A DNA stretch of 64,000 nucleotides, from the NCBI GenBank assembly GCA_003330885.1, contig CP030277.1:1922001-1986000 (forward strand), given 5' to 3'. This DNA is from Rhodobiaceae bacterium (GTDB taxonomy: Bacteria > Pseudomonadota > Alphaproteobacteria > Parvibaculales > Parvibaculaceae). The position numbers and the translations under genes are program-made. Within the stretch, counting starts at the first letter, position 1, and the number at the start of each line of letters is the position of its first letter. Below, one piece after another: positions 40,862-51,539 of this stretch. Under the pieces are notes generated by a model, which was given only the letters and a program-made list of their open reading frames with translations, did not search any database and was not told the origin of the DNA.

Positions 40862-41254
40862 ATGAGCCCTCTCGCCCTTGTCCTGATAGTTATCGGCTTG
40901 CTGATCGCCGCAAGCCGCGCGCCCCTCATTGTCGCTCCCGAAAGCACACGGTCTCTCTACCTGAAGCTCATGGAAACCGATGGGCGTATGCGTGGCCTCG
41001 CCCTGCTCATCATCCTACTCGGCGCCGCAATGATCTGGGCATCCGCTCCCGAGGCAGGGACTGTCGCCGTGGCGGTCTATTGGCTTGGGCTGCTCATGCT
41101 CGCCATCGCCACCTTCTTTATCCTGCTGCCCGGCCAGGCGAGACGTTTGGCGACCTCCACCTGGGGCAGCTTCAGCACGGGCGTCCTTCGTGGCTTGGGA
41201 TTGGCCGCGCTGGTATTCGGTTTGCTAGTCGCTGCCTACGGCTTGAACCTTTAG
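40862..41254 (+). CDS. Small integral membrane protein, unknown function
   Basis: A 130-residue protein with about four hydrophobic segments (ALVLIVIGLLIAAS, GLALLIILLGAAMIWAS, AVYWLGLLMLAIATFFILLPG and GLGLAALVFGLLVAAYGL). GGAAG precedes the ATG. The sequence suggests no family to me. Its 3' end overlaps the convergent TetR gene by 30 bases. It is the first gene of the segment separating dnaG from yqeY. Confidence 0.75.
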   Translation: MSPLALVLIVIGLLIAASRAPLIVAPESTRSLYLKLMETDGRMRGLALLIILLGAAMIWASAPEAGTVAVAVYWLGLLMLAIATFFILLPGQARRLATSTWGSFSTGVLRGLGLAALVFGLLVAAYGLNL

Positions 41255-41905
41255 GTCATCCAGCTTCTTCAGCAGCACCGGTCGGAAAGCCTCTGTCGCG
41301 TCAGACAGAAAATAAAGATAGACGCCCAAAAGCCCATCATGGCGGAACCGGTCCAGACTGATGCGGCCATAGGTCCAGGAACTAGACGCTACGCGATAGT
41401 TCGCGAATATCTGCTCACCAAGGACCCGCGCAGGAACGTCACCGCGCAACAGGCCCTGCTCCTGCGCGAGCCGCGCCGCGTTTTCTTGCATCGACGCAGA
41501 GCGCGACCCGAGTTGTTTCCATTCATCCACGCTCTGATCTGTGCGCTCAATATGGTCTGCGGCGATATGAGCAGAGCGAAAATATTCTTTGTTCTCCCCA
41601 ATCATCCGCGTCGCTACAACGACCACAGCCTCGGCTTTGTCCAGCGGATGGTCTTCATCGATCTTGGTGAGCTCCTGCTCAATCATACCGACCCAATCAG
41701 CGAACAATTCGTTGAGGATCTTCTCCTTGCCGCCGATCAGGTTGTAGATCGTTGGGACCGTCACTTCAGCGGCAGCTGCAAGTTTCCGCAGGCTCAAACC
41801 CTCAAATCCATGCTCGCCGATGAGGCGCCGGGCTTCGTCAATAATCCGGGCCCGGCGATCCGACTTCGCTGCCGATCTGGGTCTCTCAAATGCAATGACG
41901 GTCAC
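41225..41905 (-). CDS. TetR-family transcriptional regulator
   Basis: The 226-residue repressor has a DNA-binding domain in residues 15-60 (RARIIDEARRLIGEHGFEGLSLRKLAAAAEVTVPTIYNLIGGKE) and a helical ligand domain. The GTG at 41905 was chosen because GGAG lies five bases before it; the GTG at 41911 abuts that site. It is divergent from the haloalkane dehalogenase gene, with two palindromic sites between, and probably controls that catabolic unit. Confidence 0.9.
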   Translation of the reverse strand: MTVIAFERPRSAAKSDRRARIIDEARRLIGEHGFEGLSLRKLAAAAEVTVPTIYNLIGGKEKILNELFADWVGMIEQELTKIDEDHPLDKAEAVVVVATRMIGENKEYFRSAHIAADHIERTDQSVDEWKQLGSRSASMQENAARLAQEQGLLRGDVPARVLGEQIFANYRVASSSWTYGRISLDRFRHDGLLGVYLYFLSDATEAFRPVLLKKLDDLKVQAVGSD

Positions 41906-41944
41906 GGGCACTCCTTTGATTCGGGCGTCTCACCCAATTTGAAT

Positions 41945-41993
41945 TTTAACACTGTACAAACCTAAAACACCACCCTACTTTAACACTGTTAAA
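41945..41993. promoter_or_regulatory. Two TetR operator sites (TTTAACA-C-TGTTAAA type)
   Basis: A perfect 15-bp palindrome TTTAACACTGTTAAA lies at 41979-41993. A degenerate copy, TTTAACACTGTACAAA, lies at 41945-41960, 34 bases away. Both are between the divergent TetR and dehalogenase genes. Confidence 0.75.
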
Positions 41994-42062
41994 AAAGCAC
42001 ACTGAGATGGCGGCAGTGTGCGCCAAGGTCGGCCACCTCCCCGCCAGTAGATGAGATTTGCC

Positions 42063-43025
42063 ATGACGGATTTCCTTCGCACACCCGACGAAAACTTCAC
42101 CAACTTGAAGGACTTCGATTTCGAACCCCACTACCACCAGTGGCAGGACCTGCGAATGCACTATCTCGACGAAGGCCCAAAGGACGGCCCGGTGATGCTG
42201 TTGATGCATGGCATGCCCGCATGGAGCTACTTGTATCGACACATGATCCCGCCACTGGTCGCTGCAGGCTACCGCTGCATCGCGCCAGACCATATGGGAT
42301 TTGGCCGCTCCGACAAGCCGACAGACATTCACTGGTACACCATCGCCCGCCACACAGAGATCCTGACGACACTCATCACGGGCCTCGACCTCAACGACAT
42401 CACCCTTGTCTGTCAGGACTGGGGAGGCCCAACCGGACTGGCGCAGGCAGCGACCATGCCCGAACGCTTTTCACGCCTGGTGATTATGAACACCTGGCTC
42501 CACCGCCCGGACTATGAATATTCCGAAGGCATACGGAACTGGAACCAGAATTGGCAGGAGGGCGGTCTCTTCTGTCGGGAAAAGCCGGATATGGGGCTGC
42601 TCATGGCAATGACCGCCGGACTGTTGGAGCCCAATGAAACTCTCGGACACATCGCTGCCGGAACAAGACCAGATCTCGACGGGGCCGCCGCTGACATGTG
42701 CGCGGCGTATGAAGCGCCCGTCGCAGGTCTCCCAGACGAAGCCTATAACGGATTCCGGCGGTTCCCACTCTCAATCCCCGTGAGCAGCTATGACAACGGG
42801 AACGGCGCCGCCCAGACCCATCACTACAACACCCTGCTGAACTGGCCGAAGCCTGTGCACTTCATCTGGGGCTGCACGGACAATGTCTTCACCGAGGAAC
42901 AGGGCCGCGCCTGGGCAAAAGAGATGAACGCCAGCTTCGATCCGATCCCAGAGGCCGGCCACTTCTTGCAAAACACCCACGGCGCCGAAACAGCCGCTCA
43001 TATTTTGAAGCGCGTCGCGAGCTAA
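42063..43025 (+). CDS. Haloalkane dehalogenase-like alpha/beta hydrolase
   Basis: A 320-residue alpha/beta hydrolase of the haloalkane dehalogenase group (HLD-I, DhlA/DhmA-like). The oxyanion-hole motif LMHGMPAWSYLYR is near residue 50, the nucleophile Asp in LVCQDWGGPTG near 119 with the adjacent halide-stabilising Trp, and the base His in PEAGHFLQNTHG near 300. HLDs hydrolyse carbon-halogen bonds to alcohols. Epoxide hydrolases share this fold, so the substrate needs testing. It is divergent from TetR and followed by a Rieske oxygenase gene after 35 bases. Confidence 0.85.
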   Translation: MTDFLRTPDENFTNLKDFDFEPHYHQWQDLRMHYLDEGPKDGPVMLLMHGMPAWSYLYRHMIPPLVAAGYRCIAPDHMGFGRSDKPTDIHWYTIARHTEILTTLITGLDLNDITLVCQDWGGPTGLAQAATMPERFSRLVIMNTWLHRPDYEYSEGIRNWNQNWQEGGLFCREKPDMGLLMAMTAGLLEPNETLGHIAAGTRPDLDGAAADMCAAYEAPVAGLPDEAYNGFRRFPLSIPVSSYDNGNGAAQTHHYNTLLNWPKPVHFIWGCTDNVFTEEQGRAWAKEMNASFDPIPEAGHFLQNTHGAETAAHILKRVAS

Positions 43026-43060
43026 ACAAAAAAACCAACAGACAATTCGGAGGAATCATC

Positions 43061-44314
43061 GTGGACCACCAGCTGCAAGTGGAAATTCTGAAAGACCTGA
43101 TGCATCAGCTCGACAGCGGAAAAAACATCGATGTTGGCGTCCAGTACAAGATACCGACAGAGACCTATGCTTGCCCGGACCTTGCGGCGAAAGAATGGGA
43201 CACCATGTTTCGCAACTACCCGCAGGCAATTGGGCTCTCTGGCGCACTGCCAGAACCCGGCAGTTTCCTGACGATGGAAGATTTTGGCGCGCCTATTCTC
43301 GCCACCCGCGCCAAGAAGGGAAACTTCCGAGCCTTCCTTAATGCCTGCCGTCATCGCGCAACGCGCGTCGCCATGGAACCACGCGGCAAACGCACACTCT
43401 TTACCTGCCCTTTTCACGCCTGGTCCTATTCCAACGAAGGAGACCTGGTTGCAATTCCCGACAATGATCACTTTGGCGATGTCGATAAATCCTGCCGAGG
43501 ATTGATCGAACTGCCCGCGCTCGAAATTGGCGGTCTGCTGTGGGTGCATCCACAGCCCAATGGCAAACTGGACATTGAAGACCTGCTCGGCCCTCTGGCG
43601 AGTGAGATCGCATCCAACCACTTCGAAGACTTGGTCTATGTCGGCAGCAAAACGATTGACCGCAAGCTCAACTGGAAACTCGCCAACGACACATTTGGCG
43701 AGACCTATCACTTCCAGAAACTGCATAAGGACACGCTGGGACATATCTTCTACGGCAACAATACGCACTATGAAGAGTTCGGCCGCAATCACAGATTCAC
43801 AACGGCCAATCTCGGTATAGATAAATTCCGCGAGCTTCCTGAATCTGAATGGCAAATCAACCAGGGAACCTTTGTCGACTACCACCTCTTCCCCAACATT
43901 CAATGCATCTGGAGTGGAGACAATGTCTCCTTCATCCGCATCTATCCAGACCCGGAAAATGCCGGTCGCTCGATCACCCAGGTGGATTTCTACTTCTCTC
44001 AAGCCGCTGTTGACGCCGCCAATGCCGCAGATGCCGCAACCAAAGCAGGGGCCGTGGAAAATGTGTATGAGCGGTCAGAGAACCGTGTCTCAACACTGGA
44101 GAGCATCATGGAGGTCTTCAACAGCACCATTGAACAGGAGGATTATGTGATGGGCGAATATCAACAAATCGCCGCCGCCAGTGGCATTGCAGGCGACGCC
44201 CTGATTGGCCGGAACGAACCCGTCATCCACCACTACCATCGCTCTTACAGGGAAGCGCTGGGCCTACCGCCCCTCGAAACGATTGAGCAGCCACTTCGGT
44301 CACCGGCTGATTGA
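43061..44314 (+). CDS. Rieske non-heme iron oxygenase, alpha subunit (first copy)
   Basis: The 417-residue ring-hydroxylating oxygenase alpha subunit has a Rieske [2Fe-2S] domain with CRH near residue 96 and CPFH near 115, a catalytic domain with mononuclear-iron histidines in NDTFGETYHFQKLH near 205-220, and the third ligand Asp in QEDYVMGEYQQ near 365. All ligands are intact. The start is GTG, with GGAGG six bases upstream. No reductase, ferredoxin or beta subunit is nearby, so electron transfer partners must be encoded elsewhere. It is likely in an operon with the dehalogenase. Confidence 0.92.
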   Translation: MDHQLQVEILKDLMHQLDSGKNIDVGVQYKIPTETYACPDLAAKEWDTMFRNYPQAIGLSGALPEPGSFLTMEDFGAPILATRAKKGNFRAFLNACRHRATRVAMEPRGKRTLFTCPFHAWSYSNEGDLVAIPDNDHFGDVDKSCRGLIELPALEIGGLLWVHPQPNGKLDIEDLLGPLASEIASNHFEDLVYVGSKTIDRKLNWKLANDTFGETYHFQKLHKDTLGHIFYGNNTHYEEFGRNHRFTTANLGIDKFRELPESEWQINQGTFVDYHLFPNIQCIWSGDNVSFIRIYPDPENAGRSITQVDFYFSQAAVDAANAADAATKAGAVENVYERSENRVSTLESIMEVFNSTIEQEDYVMGEYQQIAAASGIAGDALIGRNEPVIHHYHRSYREALGLPPLETIEQPLRSPAD

Positions 44315-44544
44315 ACCTCATCAGCCAAACCTGTCCAAAGAGGACGGTCCCAGTTTCGCCGAGCGGTGCCAATCGCACAATGCATCAGAAGACCGTCACA
44401 CTCAGTTTTCCAGACAACCTATTATGATAAAACAATACATATGGCTTTGACCTAGACACGTGATTTCAGCCAAAATGTCCTTCCCGTGAGCTTGTTTTTT
44501 GGCCTCTTCGCTTGAGCGCTATCGATAACTGGAAGGTCTTACAT

Positions 44545-45777
44545 ATGCGCCATGAAGAACAAGTCCGTGTTCTACAATTGCTGATGCAACATCTGGATGC
44601 CAAAACCACTGTCGATGCAGGATGCCAAGTAAGAAACCCGATCCTATCATACACCTCACCGGAAATAGCGCAGCAGGAATGGCGGGCCTTTTTCCAGGAC
44701 TACCCTCACGTGCTGGGGTTGAGCGGTGACCTGCCTAAGCACGGCTCGTTCTTTACCAATAGTGACCTAGGCAAACCAATCCTGTGCACGCGCGATATGA
44801 CTGGCAGGTTCCGCGCTTTCCTAAACGTGTGCCGTCATCGCGGCGCTGTCGTTGAGAAGGCGGAGCGGGGCCGAAAGAAAAAATTCTCCTGTCCGTTTCA
44901 TTCGTGGACTTACGCCTCCAACGGAGATCTCCTGTCGGTACCAATGGAGGACCACTTCGGCGCAGTACAAAAAGAATGCAATTCACTGGTAGCCCTGCCA
45001 GCAATTGAGCGCTACGGACTGCTGTGGGTTTGCCCAGAACCAAACAGCACATTCGATCTTGATGGCTTGCTACTTGATGATTTGCTAGGTGATCTCAGCG
45101 ATGAACTTGCAAATTGGGATTTAGGCAGCTGTCACCGCTTCGATGCAACGTCTTACAAACACGCCACAAACTGGAAGTTCGCCAATGATACCTATGGCGA
45201 AACATATCACGTTCCCACACTACACCGCGCCACTCTGGCAATGAACTTCTATGGCAACGTCCAAACGTCGGACACCTACAAACGAAACCATCGAATGACG
45301 CTATGCTTACACAGCATTGATAAAATGAGGGGAACCCCAACCAGCACTTGGAACGTTCTGCGCGGCGCTATTCCAATCTACTATATTTTTCCAAACATCC
45401 AGCTTCTGTTGACCACCGGCGGTCCGATCCTCATTCGCATATACCCAGAACAAGGCGATCCGAACAATAGCCGGTCGGAAGTATCCTGGTACGCTTTTTC
45501 TGATGAAACCTATCAAGACATAGGCATTAGCGAAGACGAACAGAACGCAACATTTTCGCTCGCTGACCGCATGGCTGCATTCGCGGCAGTTATTGATGCT
45601 GAAGACCATGTTATCGCTGCCAGCAATCAGATAGGTGCCCTGAGCGGCGCTCAGGATCATCTGATTTTTGGCCGCAATGAACCCGCTCTTCACCACTTCC
45701 ATTCGACCTTCCGCAAAGCGCTCGGACAGCAGCCGCTTGAAACGCTAGAGTCACCTATCAGCTCAGCCGCTGAATAG
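44545..45777 (+). CDS. Rieske non-heme iron oxygenase, alpha subunit (second copy)
   Basis: The 410-residue paralogue of the preceding gene has Rieske ligands CRHRG and CPFHSW, catalytic NDTYGETYHVPTLH and C-terminal Asp in DAEDHVIAAS, all present. The ATG at 44545 has GGAAGG eight bases upstream and aligns with the start of the first copy; an upstream TTG at 44512 is unlikely. The third-base composition looks more AT-rich than its neighbours, and a 230-bp AT-rich gap precedes it, which suggests separate acquisition or its own promoter. Confidence 0.92.
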   Translation: MRHEEQVRVLQLLMQHLDAKTTVDAGCQVRNPILSYTSPEIAQQEWRAFFQDYPHVLGLSGDLPKHGSFFTNSDLGKPILCTRDMTGRFRAFLNVCRHRGAVVEKAERGRKKKFSCPFHSWTYASNGDLLSVPMEDHFGAVQKECNSLVALPAIERYGLLWVCPEPNSTFDLDGLLLDDLLGDLSDELANWDLGSCHRFDATSYKHATNWKFANDTYGETYHVPTLHRATLAMNFYGNVQTSDTYKRNHRMTLCLHSIDKMRGTPTSTWNVLRGAIPIYYIFPNIQLLLTTGGPILIRIYPEQGDPNNSRSEVSWYAFSDETYQDIGISEDEQNATFSLADRMAAFAAVIDAEDHVIAASNQIGALSGAQDHLIFGRNEPALHHFHSTFRKALGQQPLETLESPISSAAE

Positions 45778-45840
45778 GCTAGGTCTTGCTGTGCGTCTTG
45801 CAATAAATGGCCAACGCCTCTGAAGAAGGGGACAAGCTCA

Positions 45841-46668
45841 ATGAAACATGTTGAAGTTTACGGCACAGACCATTCACCCTGGGTGCAGGCGGTACTGCTT
45901 GGGCTCCACGAAGCAAAGATCGATCATCGCCTGCGATCCCTTCCACCGCTCCAAACATTCCTGCAAGCAGGCATCATGATGCCGGCGGCAAAGATTGATG
46001 ACGGCGAATGGCATCTGGAATCCACTGACATTCTCAAAAGCCTGGGCTTTGAGGCCGTCCCCAAAGAGCATCAACGGCTCGTCATGAGCAGCTGGCGCGG
46101 ACTGACCCATCGCGTGGATAGCGCAGCCCTCTTCTGGAGCAATTTCAGCCTGGCCGGTGACAACAACCCCTCCTACCTGCGGCGTCAGTTCAACAACCTG
46201 TTCCGCCCCTTCGTACCGCTCACCTTCTTCCTGTTGCTCAATTTCCTGCGCCTGTCCGGGCGGTCCTTCGATCCGAAAAACTTTGGCGATCAGTTTCTCC
46301 CTTTCGAGGGCATGCTGAAAGAGTCAGGCAAACCCTTTCTGTCTGGCGACGCACCCAACTCACTCGACTTTCTCTTGTTCGGCATGGTGCAGTCTCATTG
46401 CAGCACCTATGTGCCGCCGGTTCATGCTTTACAGACAGATGAGCGGCTGGAGCATCTCCGCAAGTGGCTCGCGACCATGCACAAAAGGTTCGAGGGCTAT
46501 GACCGCCTCTATTCAGGCGTCTATTTCCCGCCTCACGTCCCACGGCCAAAAATTCCGACCGGCTCAGAGCGCCTGGCATTCTGGCTTGGGGCTGCACTCA
46601 TGGTCGCGGCCTTCCCGATAACGGTGCCGCTGGTCATCTTCCTCTCTGTTCGCAACCGCATGCGATGA
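45841..46668 (+). CDS. Glutathione S-transferase-like protein with C-terminal membrane segment
   Basis: The 275-residue protein has a thioredoxin-fold GST N-domain (VEVYGTDHSPWVQAVLLGLHEAKIDHRLR, then MMPAAKIDDGEWHLESTDILKSLG) and a helical C-domain with FLSGDAPNSLDFLLFGMVQ. A hydrophobic stretch (FWLGAALMVAAFPITVPLVIFLSV) near residues 248-270 should anchor it in the membrane. It follows the second Rieske gene by 63 bases and could act on electrophilic intermediates of the pathway; this is inference from context. Confidence 0.8.
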   Translation: MKHVEVYGTDHSPWVQAVLLGLHEAKIDHRLRSLPPLQTFLQAGIMMPAAKIDDGEWHLESTDILKSLGFEAVPKEHQRLVMSSWRGLTHRVDSAALFWSNFSLAGDNNPSYLRRQFNNLFRPFVPLTFFLLLNFLRLSGRSFDPKNFGDQFLPFEGMLKESGKPFLSGDAPNSLDFLLFGMVQSHCSTYVPPVHALQTDERLEHLRKWLATMHKRFEGYDRLYSGVYFPPHVPRPKIPTGSERLAFWLGAALMVAAFPITVPLVIFLSVRNRMR

Positions 46669-46681
46669 CAAGAGGTGCCCG

Positions 46682-47515
46682 TTAGGACAGCTTACTCAGG
46701 AAACGCCGCAGCACCTTGGCAAAAGCTTTGGGTGTCTCAAGCGCTGGCATATGTCCTGCGCGGAACGTCGCCAACTCATGATCTGGCGTTGCGTCGACCG
46801 CGGCCCGGCTCTTCTTTAAAGGCACGATCTGGTCTTTGTTAGCCCATGCATAGAGCACGGGCATTGTGAGACGGCCCGCCACTGAGCGAATATCTGCTTC
46901 CGACGTGACGAAGCTGCTCCAGGCTTCAACCAACGGTTGCGCGATTTCGAACCGGGCATCAATGATCCGTCGCCGTTGCGCTTTCGCTGCACGTCTCGGC
47001 AAAACCCGGCCGTAATAAAGTTTGAACGCTGGCGAGAACCACCGCTTCCCGTCAACACCCGCCTGGAAGAAGGCGACCATGCGACCTATGGCAAAGCGGG
47101 CAAACCCATCGACCGGCGCAAGGCCGCCAGGGTTCGACAAAACCAAACCGCGGATCTTTTCAGGATGGCGGTCAGCGTAGACAATGGCCGCTGCGCCGCC
47201 AATCGAGTTGCCGTATAGCACAAATTTCTCAAGCTTCAGCGCATCCACAAAACCTTCAAGCAAGGCTGAGTAGCGCTCAGCAGACGCGGGTTCTGTATCC
47301 TGGCCGGAGCGCCCCTGCCCTGGCCAATCGAGTGCAATAATCTCAACCTGGCCTCCTATCAGGTCGGCCAGTTTTTCAAAATCTCGCGCACCATGCCCGA
47401 TAGCGTGCAGACAGAGGACAACAGGGCCCGCCCCCCATCGCTGGTAGGCAATATCGACGCCCCCCACATCAACCCTCAATGACCCTTCTGCAGCACCTAT
47501 TTCATGTCTTTTCAT
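46682..47515 (-). CDS. Alpha/beta hydrolase
   Basis: The 277-residue hydrolase has an oxyanion segment LCLHAIGHGARDFEKLA, ALDWPGQGRSG, the nucleophile Ser in YGNSIGGAAAIVYADRHP near residue 112, an acid in WANKDQIVPL and His in FRAGHMPALETP. The family includes C-C bond hydrolases and esterases; the substrate is not assignable. The ATG at 47515 was preferred over the one at 47521 because GGGGA then has proper spacing. It is divergent from a TetR regulator. Confidence 0.87.
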   Translation of the reverse strand: MKRHEIGAAEGSLRVDVGGVDIAYQRWGAGPVVLCLHAIGHGARDFEKLADLIGGQVEIIALDWPGQGRSGQDTEPASAERYSALLEGFVDALKLEKFVLYGNSIGGAAAIVYADRHPEKIRGLVLSNPGGLAPVDGFARFAIGRMVAFFQAGVDGKRWFSPAFKLYYGRVLPRRAAKAQRRRIIDARFEIAQPLVEAWSSFVTSEADIRSVAGRLTMPVLYAWANKDQIVPLKKSRAAVDATPDHELATFRAGHMPALETPKAFAKVLRRFLSKLS

Positions 47516-47524
47516 ACGCATTCC

Positions 47525-47552
47525 CCAAAAGAGATATTTATATCACTTTTGG
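47525..47552. promoter_or_regulatory. 28-bp TetR operator palindrome
   Basis: Arms CCAAAAG and CTTTTGG and inner arms GATAT and ATATC form a nearly perfect 28-bp palindrome. It lies 10 bases before the hydrolase start and 42 before the divergent TetR start, so it could control both. Confidence 0.75.
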
Positions 47553-47594
47553 AATATGGGACACTAGAGACGACGATTCAACCAGAGAGTTCCC

Positions 47595-48167
47595 ATGCCC
47601 GCTGCTCCGCCCACAAAACAACGTGCAAAATCCCTGGCAACGCGAGAAAAACTGATCGCAGCAGCAGCAGAAGAATTTCGCACAGTCGGCTACTTCAACA
47701 CAGACACGAACAAGATTGCCGTGCGTGCTGGCTATGCCCCCGCCACTTTCTACAAACACTTCAAGAACAAGCTGAGCATCTTCCTCGCGGCCTACGAAGC
47801 CTGGGTGGCAGAGGAATGGCGGGCATTGGAGGCGGCAGATGATGATTCAGAAACATTGATACGCACCGTTCTCGCGCATCACAAAAAGCATCTTCTGTTC
47901 AGAACGGACTTACGCGCCCTTGCCGCCACAGAACAAGAAGTGAAACGCTACCAGAACAAGCTGCGACGGGAGCAGGTCAAACGGCTGGCGGAACTTGCGC
48001 CAGACCTCGCGCCTGCGGGTGATGACTGGTCGACACCTGTATTCTTGCTCCTCACCATGGAACGTGTGTCCGATGCCATCGCAGACGGGTCCGCCAAAGC
48101 AAGCCATGCAAGCGAGACCAAACTCATCACCAATCTGATAAAGCTTATAGATAGTCTAAGGCACTAG
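47595..48167 (+). CDS. TetR-family transcriptional regulator
   Basis: The 190-residue repressor has an N-terminal helix-turn-helix (TREKLIAAAAEEFRTVGYFNTDTNKIAVRAGYAPATFYKHFKNKL) and a helical C-terminal domain. It is divergent from an alpha/beta hydrolase, with the 28-bp palindrome between. Its stop overlaps the convergent membrane-protein gene by four bases. Confidence 0.9.
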   Translation: MPAAPPTKQRAKSLATREKLIAAAAEEFRTVGYFNTDTNKIAVRAGYAPATFYKHFKNKLSIFLAAYEAWVAEEWRALEAADDDSETLIRTVLAHHKKHLLFRTDLRALAATEQEVKRYQNKLRREQVKRLAELAPDLAPAGDDWSTPVFLLLTMERVSDAIADGSAKASHASETKLITNLIKLIDSLRH

Positions 48168-49303
48168 CCGATCGCCGCGTCCACAGCCCGTTCCATCAAC
48201 GCACCGCCAATCCAGGAAATCAGAGGGATGGCGAGGTAAAATGCCAACCGCCCAAGAGTAGAAAAATCAATCGGCCATTCTCGAGCAGCTTGAATACGCG
48301 CTTCCAACGCCAGAAGCCCACCCATTTTGGAGAGCGCCATATCATCATCGTCAGAATCCTTAAGGCGCACCCAGCACCGATCAATCACACGCCGCACGTC
48401 CTTCAATTGACGCTCCTTCTCGGCAATGATTTTCCGGTGCCACCCGACAAGCGGCACAAAGAGATTGGCTACGGCGACAACACCAATGCCGACAAAAAAT
48501 GGAAGCAAGACACTGCGGTCGATACCACTGCTCAGAAAGAATAGTGATCCAATAGTCGCACCAATCACCCAGGTAAAAGAGCCCCGCATTGCCGCTTTCG
48601 TGACGGGCCTAAGTTTTGTGGCATCAAAAATGTCAGGTGCGTCAACCTCTTTGCGCAAGCGCGACCAGAGGCGACCTTCATCAATCGTCAGATAGAAATA
48701 TTTGGCGATGAGCGAAAAGGCAAAAGGTGTTACGGCAAAAAACCACACAGCCGCCACCTGCATAGAGGCTGGTGGTAAAAACTCATAGCGCCCCTGATAG
48801 CCCAGCAACTCCATCATTCCAGGCAAGGCTGGAATCAACGTAACAAATCCGAACAAATATCCAGCAACACCCACCAGGCGCGCAGCTGAGCGTCCGGCAC
48901 GCAGATGTTCCGCCCATATCGATAGAAGCTCTTCGCGCTCAAGCCCGAGCATCATTGCCGCTTCAGCACTCTCATTCCTCTGCGCAACCAAATTGTAAGA
49001 AACGACAGTTGCCGCGTAGCCTCCAAGAAGAGAGAAGATGGTCGCCGCCCAACCATAAGGACCAAGGCCGAACAGGAGTGCAGGAGCATCAGCGCCGTCC
49101 TCGGGATCAGGTCCTCCCGGTATCTGATCCAACCCGATCTCGGAATAGACACCAGCAGCCCAGGCAAACACCCAATAGCTGATCCACAAAGTCCCTGCGA
49201 TCATGAAGGAGGCAGGCCATGGGCGGCCGCCCAGTCGCCAGACAAGCCATTGATCCCATGCATAAAGCTGATCGCGTTTGAGCGATGGATCCTGTAATGC
49301 CAA
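48164..49303 (-). CDS. Membrane protein of unknown function
   Basis: The 379-residue protein has about eight hydrophobic helices, including residues 34-52, 85-105, 143-165, 185-205, 250-290 and 355-370. A charged cytoplasmic segment near 300-350 (EKERQLKDVRRVIDRCWVRLKDSDDDD) breaks the membrane part. I recognise no family. The start is TTG, with GGAGG five bases upstream. It is divergent from the phosphotransferase gene. Confidence 0.75.
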   Translation of the reverse strand: MALQDPSLKRDQLYAWDQWLVWRLGGRPWPASFMIAGTLWISYWVFAWAAGVYSEIGLDQIPGGPDPEDGADAPALLFGLGPYGWAATIFSLLGGYAATVVSYNLVAQRNESAEAAMMLGLEREELLSIWAEHLRAGRSAARLVGVAGYLFGFVTLIPALPGMMELLGYQGRYEFLPPASMQVAAVWFFAVTPFAFSLIAKYFYLTIDEGRLWSRLRKEVDAPDIFDATKLRPVTKAAMRGSFTWVIGATIGSLFFLSSGIDRSVLLPFFVGIGVVAVANLFVPLVGWHRKIIAEKERQLKDVRRVIDRCWVRLKDSDDDDMALSKMGGLLALEARIQAAREWPIDFSTLGRLAFYLAIPLISWIGGALMERAVDAAIG

Positions 49304-49412
49304 AGCCGCCTCCCCTTTTGTCGTCTCAGATTGTTGACTGCCCCTGCGGCAAGGTCAAACCCATTGCTCCCTGTACGTTTGTCTCGCTAGGCTGGATGTC
49401 AGGGAGAGACAC

Positions 49413-50483
49413 ATGACATCCATACCGACCGAAGCCACCATCAACAATGCCTGGCTGACCGACCAGCTCAACAAAGCTGGACACCAAGTTGAAGTGACGG
49501 GCTTCCAGGCAAAACGCATTGGGACCGGCCAGATCGGCAAATGCATTCGCTACGACCTGCAATTGGTCGGCAAGACCGACGGTGCTCCGACGAGCTTGGT
49601 CGGTAAATTCCCGTCCGATGATGAAACAAGCCGCGCTACAGGCGTCATGCTCAAAAACTTCATCAAGGAAGTCTCATTTTACCAGCAGCTGCAACAGCGC
49701 CTCACCATCGCCACCCCCAAATGCTACTTCGCAGCCATCGACGGCGAAGGACCAGACTTCGCGCTCCTGCTCGAAGACCTGAGCCCCGCCGTTCAGGGGG
49801 ATCAACTCGCCGGCTGCTCGGTGCATGTTGCCCGCGCCGCGGTCCTGGAACTGGTGGGGCTCCACGCACCAAGTTGGAACGACGAAACGCTCCGCGGCAA
49901 AGACTGGCTGGGGGAACCGGATGCAGACAGCACCGAGCTCAACCGCGCGCTCTACCAGGGCAATATTGACGGCTTTGCAGAGCGCTATGGACCAAATCTC
50001 AAAGCAGACGAACTGGAGATTATCCGAAAAGTCGCAGGCGCTGCACCACCGACCGGCGAAACACTACCAACGCCCTTCTCACTCGTGCACATCGACTACC
50101 GTCTCGACAATCTGCTCATCAATGAGGACTTGTCCCCACCCAAGATCACGGCGGTGGATTGGCAAAGCATTTCACTCGGCAGCCCGCTCGCGGACGTCGC
50201 CTATTTCTTAGGAGCGGGCCTGCGCTCAGAAACCCGCAGACAGGCAGAAGAAGAGATTGTCAGCGCGTACCACGCGAGCCTCTTGAATGCCGGCATCAAA
50301 GACTATGGCTGGGATGCCTGCTGGACCGACTATCGCAAAGGCGTGTTCGCAGGCTTCTTCGTGACCGTCATCGCCTCCATGATTGTGGAACGCACAGAGC
50401 GAGGGGACGAGATGTTCCTCACCATGGCAAGACGCCACGCCAGGCACGCTATAGATCTGGGCTCCGACGAATTTTTGACCTGA
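49413..50483 (+). CDS. Phosphotransferase/EcKinase-like protein
   Basis: The 356-residue kinase-fold protein of the APH/ecdysteroid kinase-like group has nucleotide-binding segments KRIGTGQIGKCIRYDLQL near residue 34, FALLLEDLSPAVQGDQL near 115, the catalytic loop LVHIDYRLDNLLINED near 225 and TAVDWQSISLGSPLADVAYFLG near 247. Related proteins occur in aromatic and steroid catabolic clusters in bacteria, but substrates are mostly unknown. GGGAG precedes the ATG. Confidence 0.82.
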   Translation: MTSIPTEATINNAWLTDQLNKAGHQVEVTGFQAKRIGTGQIGKCIRYDLQLVGKTDGAPTSLVGKFPSDDETSRATGVMLKNFIKEVSFYQQLQQRLTIATPKCYFAAIDGEGPDFALLLEDLSPAVQGDQLAGCSVHVARAAVLELVGLHAPSWNDETLRGKDWLGEPDADSTELNRALYQGNIDGFAERYGPNLKADELEIIRKVAGAAPPTGETLPTPFSLVHIDYRLDNLLINEDLSPPKITAVDWQSISLGSPLADVAYFLGAGLRSETRRQAEEEIVSAYHASLLNAGIKDYGWDACWTDYRKGVFAGFFVTVIASMIVERTERGDEMFLTMARRHARHAIDLGSDEFLT

Positions 50484-50561
50484 TTTAAAAGAAATCGATC
50501 TGACCCCGTATCTTTTTAGGCCCCTCATCCGTTTAAGCTAGACAAGGATGGGAGGGACGCC

Positions 50562-51539
50562 ATGTCGAGCAAGACTGACGAAGAAAGACGCGCGGAAGGC
50601 CAGGCCTATATGCGCCGGGCGTGGTTTCTTTACCTGAACGACATTGAGCCCACGAGACCACGGCTATTTCGCTATTGCCGCAAGCTCACCGGCAATGTCT
50701 GGGACGCCGAGGATCTGGTTCAGGAAACTCTGCTCCGAGGGTTCAGCAATCTGGCACTCGAAGACAATCGAGACATTGCTTGGGGCGCCTATCTCGCGCG
50801 CACAGCAAGCAACCTCTTTATCGACCAGACCCGCAGAGCGCGACATGCGTCGATGGAGGAAGCAGAGGAACCCTCTGCGCCACCGCAAGCAGAACAGACG
50901 GCCGCCATACGGGATGGAGGACGCAAACTCATGACCCTGCTCTCTCCTCAGGAACGCTGTGCCATCGTGATGAAGGAAGTCTTTGAATACACGCTCGCCG
51001 AAACCGCCCAGCTCCTTGAAACCACGGAAGGGGCCGTAAAGGCTGCCCTCCGTCGCGGCCGCGAGAAGCTCGCCGACCCGACGCCAAGCACGCGCCCGGC
51101 TCCGTCCGAGGCTCTGGTTCAACGCTTTGTGGATGCATTCAATGCTGCAGACGTGGATGCCATGCGCGACACCATGCTGGAAACAGTGACAGCAGAAGTT
51201 TTTGCGCTCGGCACAGGCCGCGGCCTCGACAATATCGACAAACCCGACCGTTGGATTGGTGCCTGTCTCAACGGCCATTCACCAGACCCAACCCGAAAGC
51301 AGCGCGCCGAATGCGCCCTCTTTGAGGGCGTGCCCATCGTCATCCTTTGGCGGCGCTTTGGCGACGGGCCTGAGAACATGGAAGAATTTTGGCGGTTCCG
51401 GGACGAAGATGGAAAGATCGCCCATATCTGGGACTATTGCGCCTGCCCTGAGACGCTAGAGGAAGTCGGGCAAGCGCTGGGATATCCAGTCGTCACGCGG
51501 TCCTACAGCACCTATCAGGGAGAATTGGGGCAGGACTGA
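50562..51539 (+). CDS. ECF-type sigma factor with C-terminal SnoaL-like extension
   Basis: The 325-residue protein has sigma region 2 (RPRLFRYCRKLTGNVWDAEDLVQETLLRGF) near residues 28-60, region 4 (LSPQERCAIVMKEVFEYTLAETAQLLETTEGAVKAALRRGREKL) near 127-170, and an additional C-terminal domain (VQRFVDAFNAADVDAMRDTM onward) that looks SnoaL/NTF2-like, as in ECF41/SigJ-type factors where the extension modulates activity. No anti-sigma gene is adjacent. GGGAGG lies upstream of the ATG. Confidence 0.88.
   Translation: MSSKTDEERRAEGQAYMRRAWFLYLNDIEPTRPRLFRYCRKLTGNVWDAEDLVQETLLRGFSNLALEDNRDIAWGAYLARTASNLFIDQTRRARHASMEEAEEPSAPPQAEQTAAIRDGGRKLMTLLSPQERCAIVMKEVFEYTLAETAQLLETTEGAVKAALRRGREKLADPTPSTRPAPSEALVQRFVDAFNAADVDAMRDTMLETVTAEVFALGTGRGLDNIDKPDRWIGACLNGHSPDPTRKQRAECALFEGVPIVILWRRFGDGPENMEEFWRFRDEDGKIAHIWDYCACPETLEEVGQALGYPVVTRSYSTYQGELGQD

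Follow-up and report, generated by a model that had tools for sequence, protein, structure and literature searches.

We conclude that a gene cluster in a 64,000-nucleotide stretch of the single-contig, 3.86-Mb genome of an alphaproteobacterium (Rhodobiaceae bacterium, contig CP030277.1; the stretch is called the window hereafter) is probably a small, inducible oxidation cassette that is controlled by a TetR-family repressor and was assembled from modules. Between dnaG and a hydrolase gene, the TetR gene (minus strand) stands divergent from four plus-strand genes encoding a haloalkane dehalogenase-like protein, two Rieske oxygenase (RO) alpha subunits, here RO1 and RO2, and a GST-like protein. 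Three observations carry this conclusion: the active-site residues are intact, the pair of operators in front of the TetR gene is conserved, and the make-up of the locus is mosaic. An earlier sequence-only reading of this DNA had listed the TetR, dehalogenase-like and two RO alpha genes, and all of them are present and placed as it said, with the enzyme genes on one strand; these do succeed one another but they are not a tight run, being separated by gaps of 35 bp (dehalogenase to RO1), 230 bp (RO1 to RO2) and 63 bp (RO2 to the GST-like gene).

Conservation of the TetR operators

The regulator has a TetR_N domain and a palindromic site at its own promoter, both of which mark it as a member of the TetR family; all its NCBIfam equivalog scores fall far under the cut-offs, with KstR, FadR and PsrA as weak matches. 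Two copies of TTTAACA-C-TGTTAAA had been reported in front of it: site 2 (TTTAACACTGTTAAA) is indeed exact, but site 1 (TTTAACACTGTACAA) differs from that sequence at two positions. The sites are credible because of their position and conservation, not their number. With up to 3 mismatches allowed, the window contains 2 matches against 0.83 expected (22 of 100 shuffles give that many or more), and with up to 2 mismatches the whole genome has 5 per strand, below the 8 found for a reversed-pattern control; since matches at this level of mismatch are no more frequent than chance, counting was rejected as evidence for the operators. The exact palindrome has a single copy in the genome (site 2), and the remaining genome matches at 2 mismatches are scattered.

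Both sites, in unchanged order and with a spacing of 34-37 bp, precede the TetR gene in the window, in three congeners (FE80, G002 and G003) and in two loci from other families of the class (L170 and L171), so that the pair recurs in three congeners and in 2 of 3 distant TetR-RO loci; at L041 one site is perfect and the first of the two is poorer. More distant regulators follow the same pattern at the TetR start, with TTTATCA-N-TGATAAA-type sites in a second TetR set (L172, L173 and L174, 42-43% identical) and TTTAACA-type sites in L175 and L176 (TetR 36-37% identical). When at least 11 of the 12 fixed positions had to match, a TTTANCA-N-TGNTAAA site was found no more than 100 bp upstream of the TetR start in 12 of 14 loci (a count that leaves out L037, L060 and L026, the last with a weaker site), and shuffled upstream regions reached the same criterion in 16 of 28,000 cases. 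The informative part of this test is the complete lack of such sites in the other 294,158 bp. Taken together, the conserved operator pair at the TetR start is good comparative support for the earlier claim that TetR would control the adjoining genes.

A search of 385 genomes of the class (E <= 1e-22) placed related TetR genes at 12 sites in 10 genomes, and every one of the 12 had an oxygenase-type gene within 3 kb, a figure that stands without a background rate for random TetR genes. The neighbors were ROs in eight cases, PhyH-family proteins in two, a P450 in one and a borderline diiron protein in one (28.6 bits against a cut-off of 28).

The company of these regulators varies in other ways. 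At L172, L173 and L174 the TetR gene and its sites stand in front of genes for a fatty acid desaturase-like protein and for an RO that belongs to the RO1 clade, and at L172 and L174 an acyl-CoA dehydrogenase gene is present as well. Two genomes, G114 and G146, have both TetR-RO types. At L175 and L176, PhyH-family dioxygenase genes diverge from the related TetR gene with the same kind of palindrome.

Mosaic make-up of the locus

Comparison with the congeners shows that sharply bounded blocks of genes are present or absent at this chromosomal spot. Nucleotide collinearity with G002 and G003 stops at 41996 and 41995, directly past the exact palindrome, and picks up again at 44545, the start codon of RO2; these genomes lack exactly the 2.55 kb holding the dehalogenase-like gene and RO1, so that TetR and its operators directly face a relative of RO2, a single RO gene some 20-30 bp past the operator. 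FE80 (recorded as a Rhodobiaceae bacterium isolate), in which the dehalogenase is 94% and RO1 91% identical, is collinear with the window to 44324 and again from 45841: it retains the dehalogenase, RO1 and GST-like genes and is missing exactly RO2 with its upstream gap. Thus FE80 lacks RO2, G003 lacks the dehalogenase and RO1, and G002 lacks these two and the GST-like gene, and direct adjacency of dehalogenase and RO1 is found in the window and FE80 only.

The RO tree agrees with this picture, in that RO1 and RO2 fall into different clades of the family: RO2 groups with the ROs of G002 and G003 (support 100/99), and RO1 with that of FE80 and next with that of L173 (support 100/99), which has its own TetR gene and a desaturase gene alongside. 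RO2 may be a replaced copy and not a straight orthologue of the G002 and G003 ROs, since its synonymous divergence (2.14 against G003, saturated against G002) exceeds that of the flanking genes (0.25-1.41 against G003). Among the latter, TetR (1.41) is more diverged than the GST-like gene (0.68) and dnaG (0.42), which fits a joint exchange of TetR and oxygenase, a pattern that rate differences could also give.

Judging from these comparisons, the constant part of the locus in evolution is TetR, its operators and an oxygenase. The dehalogenase-RO1 pair forms one block placed precisely between operator and RO2, and it would therefore stand under the same control.

Two further features of the surroundings were seen. 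An HxlR-type regulator gene and a divergent glyoxalase-fold gene lie downstream of the oxygenase in FE80 (L001, 12211-13159) and G002 (L139, 10438-11386; the Pfam scan covered this pair only) and are absent at this spot in the window and G003. An ecdysteroid-kinase-like gene is found near the TetR-RO locus in the window (49413-50483), in the genus and in Phenylobacterium (L041, 6428-8026).

The dehalogenase-like protein

Haloalkane dehalogenases of subfamily I (HLD-I) use two halide-stabilizing Trp residues. The window protein (numbered from ATG 42063) has all the HLD-I residues, namely Asp119, Trp120, Trp160, Asp273 and His300, of which Asp119, Trp120 and His300 are invariant in 28 aligned proteins and Trp160 and Asp273 are present in at least 90%; the cap Trp is shared with five aligned solved HLD-I sequences. 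Its predicted model (pLDDT, the predicted local distance difference test, 88.9) has an alpha/beta-hydrolase core with a helical cap, and its best Foldseek matches are HLD-I enzymes: DpcA (6f9o), DmrA (4mj3), DccA (5esr) and DhlA (1b6g) have the same fold (query-normalized TM scores of 0.73-0.82) and share, by alignment, the Asp-His-Asp triad and both halide Trp. The window protein differs from these solved enzymes in sequence (33-38% identity in the fold alignments), in a cap about 20 residues longer, and in having Met where Glu, Asn or Gln follows His-Gly. These residues and folds support the earlier assignment of a haloalkane dehalogenase-like gene. Plasmid relatives of the protein were found in 36 records, all below 60% identity.

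We consider it unlikely that the protein is instead an epoxide or ester hydrolase in vivo, or catalyzes some other reaction. Such a role is suggested by the combination of Met51 and the long cap, common to FE80 and G014 only among the 28 aligned proteins, and by a score for NCBIfam model NF002043 that falls just below the curated cut-off (264.6 against 265 bits); set against this are the Asp-Trp and cap Trp, placed as in the solved HLD-I enzymes, and the three best NCBIfam models, all of which are haloalkane dehalogenases.

The Rieske oxygenases, their electron supply and the GST-like protein

Both oxygenases are intact in the residues that bind the Rieske cluster and the iron, as the earlier assignment of two RO alpha subunits implied. 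The cluster motif CxH...CxxH (Cys96, His98, Cys116 and His119 in RO1 and in RO2) is present in all 87 aligned rows (6 distant rows of 93 were removed before the count), and so is the bridging Glu (Glu214 in RO1, Glu219 in RO2). The mononuclear iron ligands are His217, His222 and Asp361 in RO1 and His222, His227 and Asp354 in RO2; the roles of these 2-His-1-carboxylate and bridging residues are those that we take to hold for the family. The best solved relatives are distant (72 bits for RO1, 80 bits for RO2). The Rieske and mononuclear iron ligands are shared with the carnitine monooxygenase CntA (6y8j) and with the nitrobenzene dioxygenase alpha subunit (2bmo), and the bridging Glu is as in the aligned CntA sequence; the differences are the low overall similarity and the absence, from the neighbors scanned, of genes for a beta subunit or a reductase.

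RO1 has plasmid relatives in 13 records (all below 60% identity), and one plasmid, of Novosphingobium sp. THN1, carries distant relatives of both RO1 and the dehalogenase, about 92 kb apart. As for other RO relatives, L030, whose record bears the name Klebsiella pneumoniae, has an RO that clusters with UBA981 and with a gammaproteobacterial metagenome-assembled genome, the bin being probably misnamed, and four genomes of the family (L092, L093, L094 and L096) have relatives at 37% with one TGA inside the match.

A nearby electron-transfer partner is not a strict requirement of the RO family. None of the ten proteins scanned (41225-51539) is a reductase, so the earlier statement that no reductase partner is present holds locally, and one GR-type ferredoxin reductase with a Reductase_C domain (120.8 bits) lies elsewhere in the genome and could serve RO1 and RO2. 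The genome searches found no dedicated FNR-type reductase, though a divergent one could have been missed; the sole FAD_binding_6 protein found reads, by eye, as a flavohaemoglobin.

The gene called GST-like in the earlier reading is there, but the label itself is weak: GST_N_2 scores 21.2 bits, below the curated threshold of 25, and all three GST-like members give weak GST_N/GST_C matches. The gene was found in 2 of the 385 class genomes and in FE80, and its model, built from three sequences, is of low confidence (pLDDT 37.1).

Features of the locus

Coordinates are collected in Table 1. The dehalogenase frame is open from ATG 42051, and 42063 is the best start because the near relative in FE80 begins at the second ATG. 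For RO2, a start at TTG 44512 was judged less likely, since the family alignment begins at 44545 and GGAAG lies upstream of that ATG. A sigma-70-like site at 44447 lies in the RO1-RO2 gap, and a promoter of RO2's own was not accepted as an evidenced feature because such sites in the region are at chance level (2 found, 3.5 expected). Terminators, too, occur there about as expected (7 against 6.7), and a scan for known RNA elements at the locus gave none. The leader hairpin has a counterpart at the same place in FE80 (L001, 8939-8966), of different sequence and with 10-bp perfect arms, a comparison of two sequences only.

Table 1. Positions of genes, predicted sites and collinearity segments in the window.
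Feature	Position	Strand	Remarks
TetR-family repressor	41225..41911	-	TetR_N 46 bits; 88-90% identity in three congeners, same position
Operator site 1 TTTAACACTGTACAA, imperfect palindrome (predicted)	41945..41959	.	identical in FE80, G002, G003, L170, L171
Operator site 2 TTTAACACTGTTAAA, perfect palindrome (predicted)	41979..41993	.	34 bp from site 1; conserved
Hairpin, leader of dehalogenase gene	41997..42021	+	8-bp perfect arms; begins at end of G002/G003 collinearity
Haloalkane dehalogenase-like (subfamily I) alpha/beta hydrolase, long cap	42063..43025	+	domain, alignment and fold matches
Rieske oxygenase alpha subunit RO1	43061..44314	+	domain matches, tree, iron ligands
RO1-RO2 gap, 230 bp	44315..44544	.	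without operator palindrome
Rieske oxygenase alpha subunit RO2	44545..45777	+	71% identity to single RO of G002 and G003
GST-like protein, C-terminal hydrophobic stretch	45841..46668	+	three genomes of the genus only; low-confidence model
Segment absent from G002 and G003 (dehalogenase and RO1 with flanks)	41997..44544	+	collinearity break
Segment absent from FE80 (RO2 and upstream gap)	44325..45840	+	collinearity break

Discussion

In the inducible cassette that we propose, TetR would bind both conserved operators and repress itself together with the downstream enzyme genes until released by a small, probably hydrophobic ligand. The transcript then made would encode the HLD-I-like hydrolase and RO1, with RO2 and the GST-like protein expressed by read-through or from a promoter of their own; the hydrolase might exchange a carbon-bound halogen for a hydroxyl group through an Asp ester, and the two oxygenases would add a hydroxyl group to their substrate or remove a methyl group from it, presumably with electrons from a ferredoxin and the genome's lone GR-type ferredoxin reductase. 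A halogenated substrate is possible, a suggestion that comes solely from the dehalogenase-like protein.

Several points weigh against this proposal. The operator template was drawn from part of the tested loci, so that the 12 of 14 is not an independent figure; two of the 12 TetR places (L177 and L178) and the actinobacterial TetR-RO loci L037 and L060 have no TTTANCA-N-TGNTAAA operator; and although we had predicted beforehand that new TetR relatives would adjoin oxygenases, no additional place turned up in two broader searches (the first, of 398 genomes, matched only the window's own; the second matched 5 of 142, all at places seen previously). In the dehalogenase-like protein, Met51 replaces the Glu, Asn or Gln seen in 25 of the 28 aligned proteins, and because of this residue and the long cap its substrate may differ. 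The 230-bp gap between RO1 and RO2, and the congeners that lack one or the other module, argue against one obligate pathway.

The enzymes could also serve detoxification and not nutrition, with TetR sensing some hydrophobic toxin (such as a product of algae or of competing microbes) that hydrolase, oxygenases and GST would modify. TetR genes beside single oxygenases, modules present or absent among congeners, and the lack of a downstream pathway nearby are all in keeping with this idea; we nevertheless hold it to be rather improbable, as the same kind of TetR-RO pair elsewhere adjoins acyl-CoA dehydrogenase and desaturase genes, suggesting lipid-like or terpenoid metabolism. Most doubtful is a single dedicated catabolic pathway, a reading that starts from the suggestion of the sequence-only reading but goes further: the dehalogenase would remove halogen from a cyclic compound, RO1 and RO2 open its breakdown and GST clear reactive intermediates. 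It could draw on the placement of all four enzyme genes on the same strand behind a single TetR gene, on the intact HLD-I residues and on a dehalogenase-RO1 pair kept together in FE80, but each of the three congeners lacks at least one enzyme gene at the same spot, that pair is adjacent in two genomes only, RO1 and RO2 belong to different clades, and none of the ten scanned proteins was recognized as serving ring cleavage, CoA ligation or transport.

Returning to the modular cassette, we tentatively raise a broader idea as a serious possibility: that the TetR subfamily with the operator code TTTANCA-N-TGNTAAA is a portable oxygenase guard. In the genus of the window, TetR and operator would stay in a fixed slot downstream of dnaG, and behind them oxygenase modules would be acquired or swapped, the dehalogenase-Rieske pair having here been stacked in front of a resident oxygenase. 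Regulators of this type stand, with the operator, before RO and Fe/2-oxoglutarate (PhyH) dioxygenase genes and, lacking it, beside the P450 and the diiron-like protein. The arrangement resembles that of TetR repressors of divergent genes such as KstR, FadR and PsrA, with which it shares TetR_N and palindromic sites between divergent genes; it differs in equivalog scores far below the cut-offs for these three and, presumably, in its operator, which departs from the KstR motif.

If the dehalogenase is active, dehalogenation and Rieske oxidation would be coupled under one inducer, a coupling that did not appear in the titles and abstract openings of the literature searched (no passage on a dehalogenase or TetR was found in PMC4110880). 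The locus would offer an example from nature of enzyme modules being brought under a switch that was already there, and the operator code could serve to mark inducible oxygenases in environmental bacteria.

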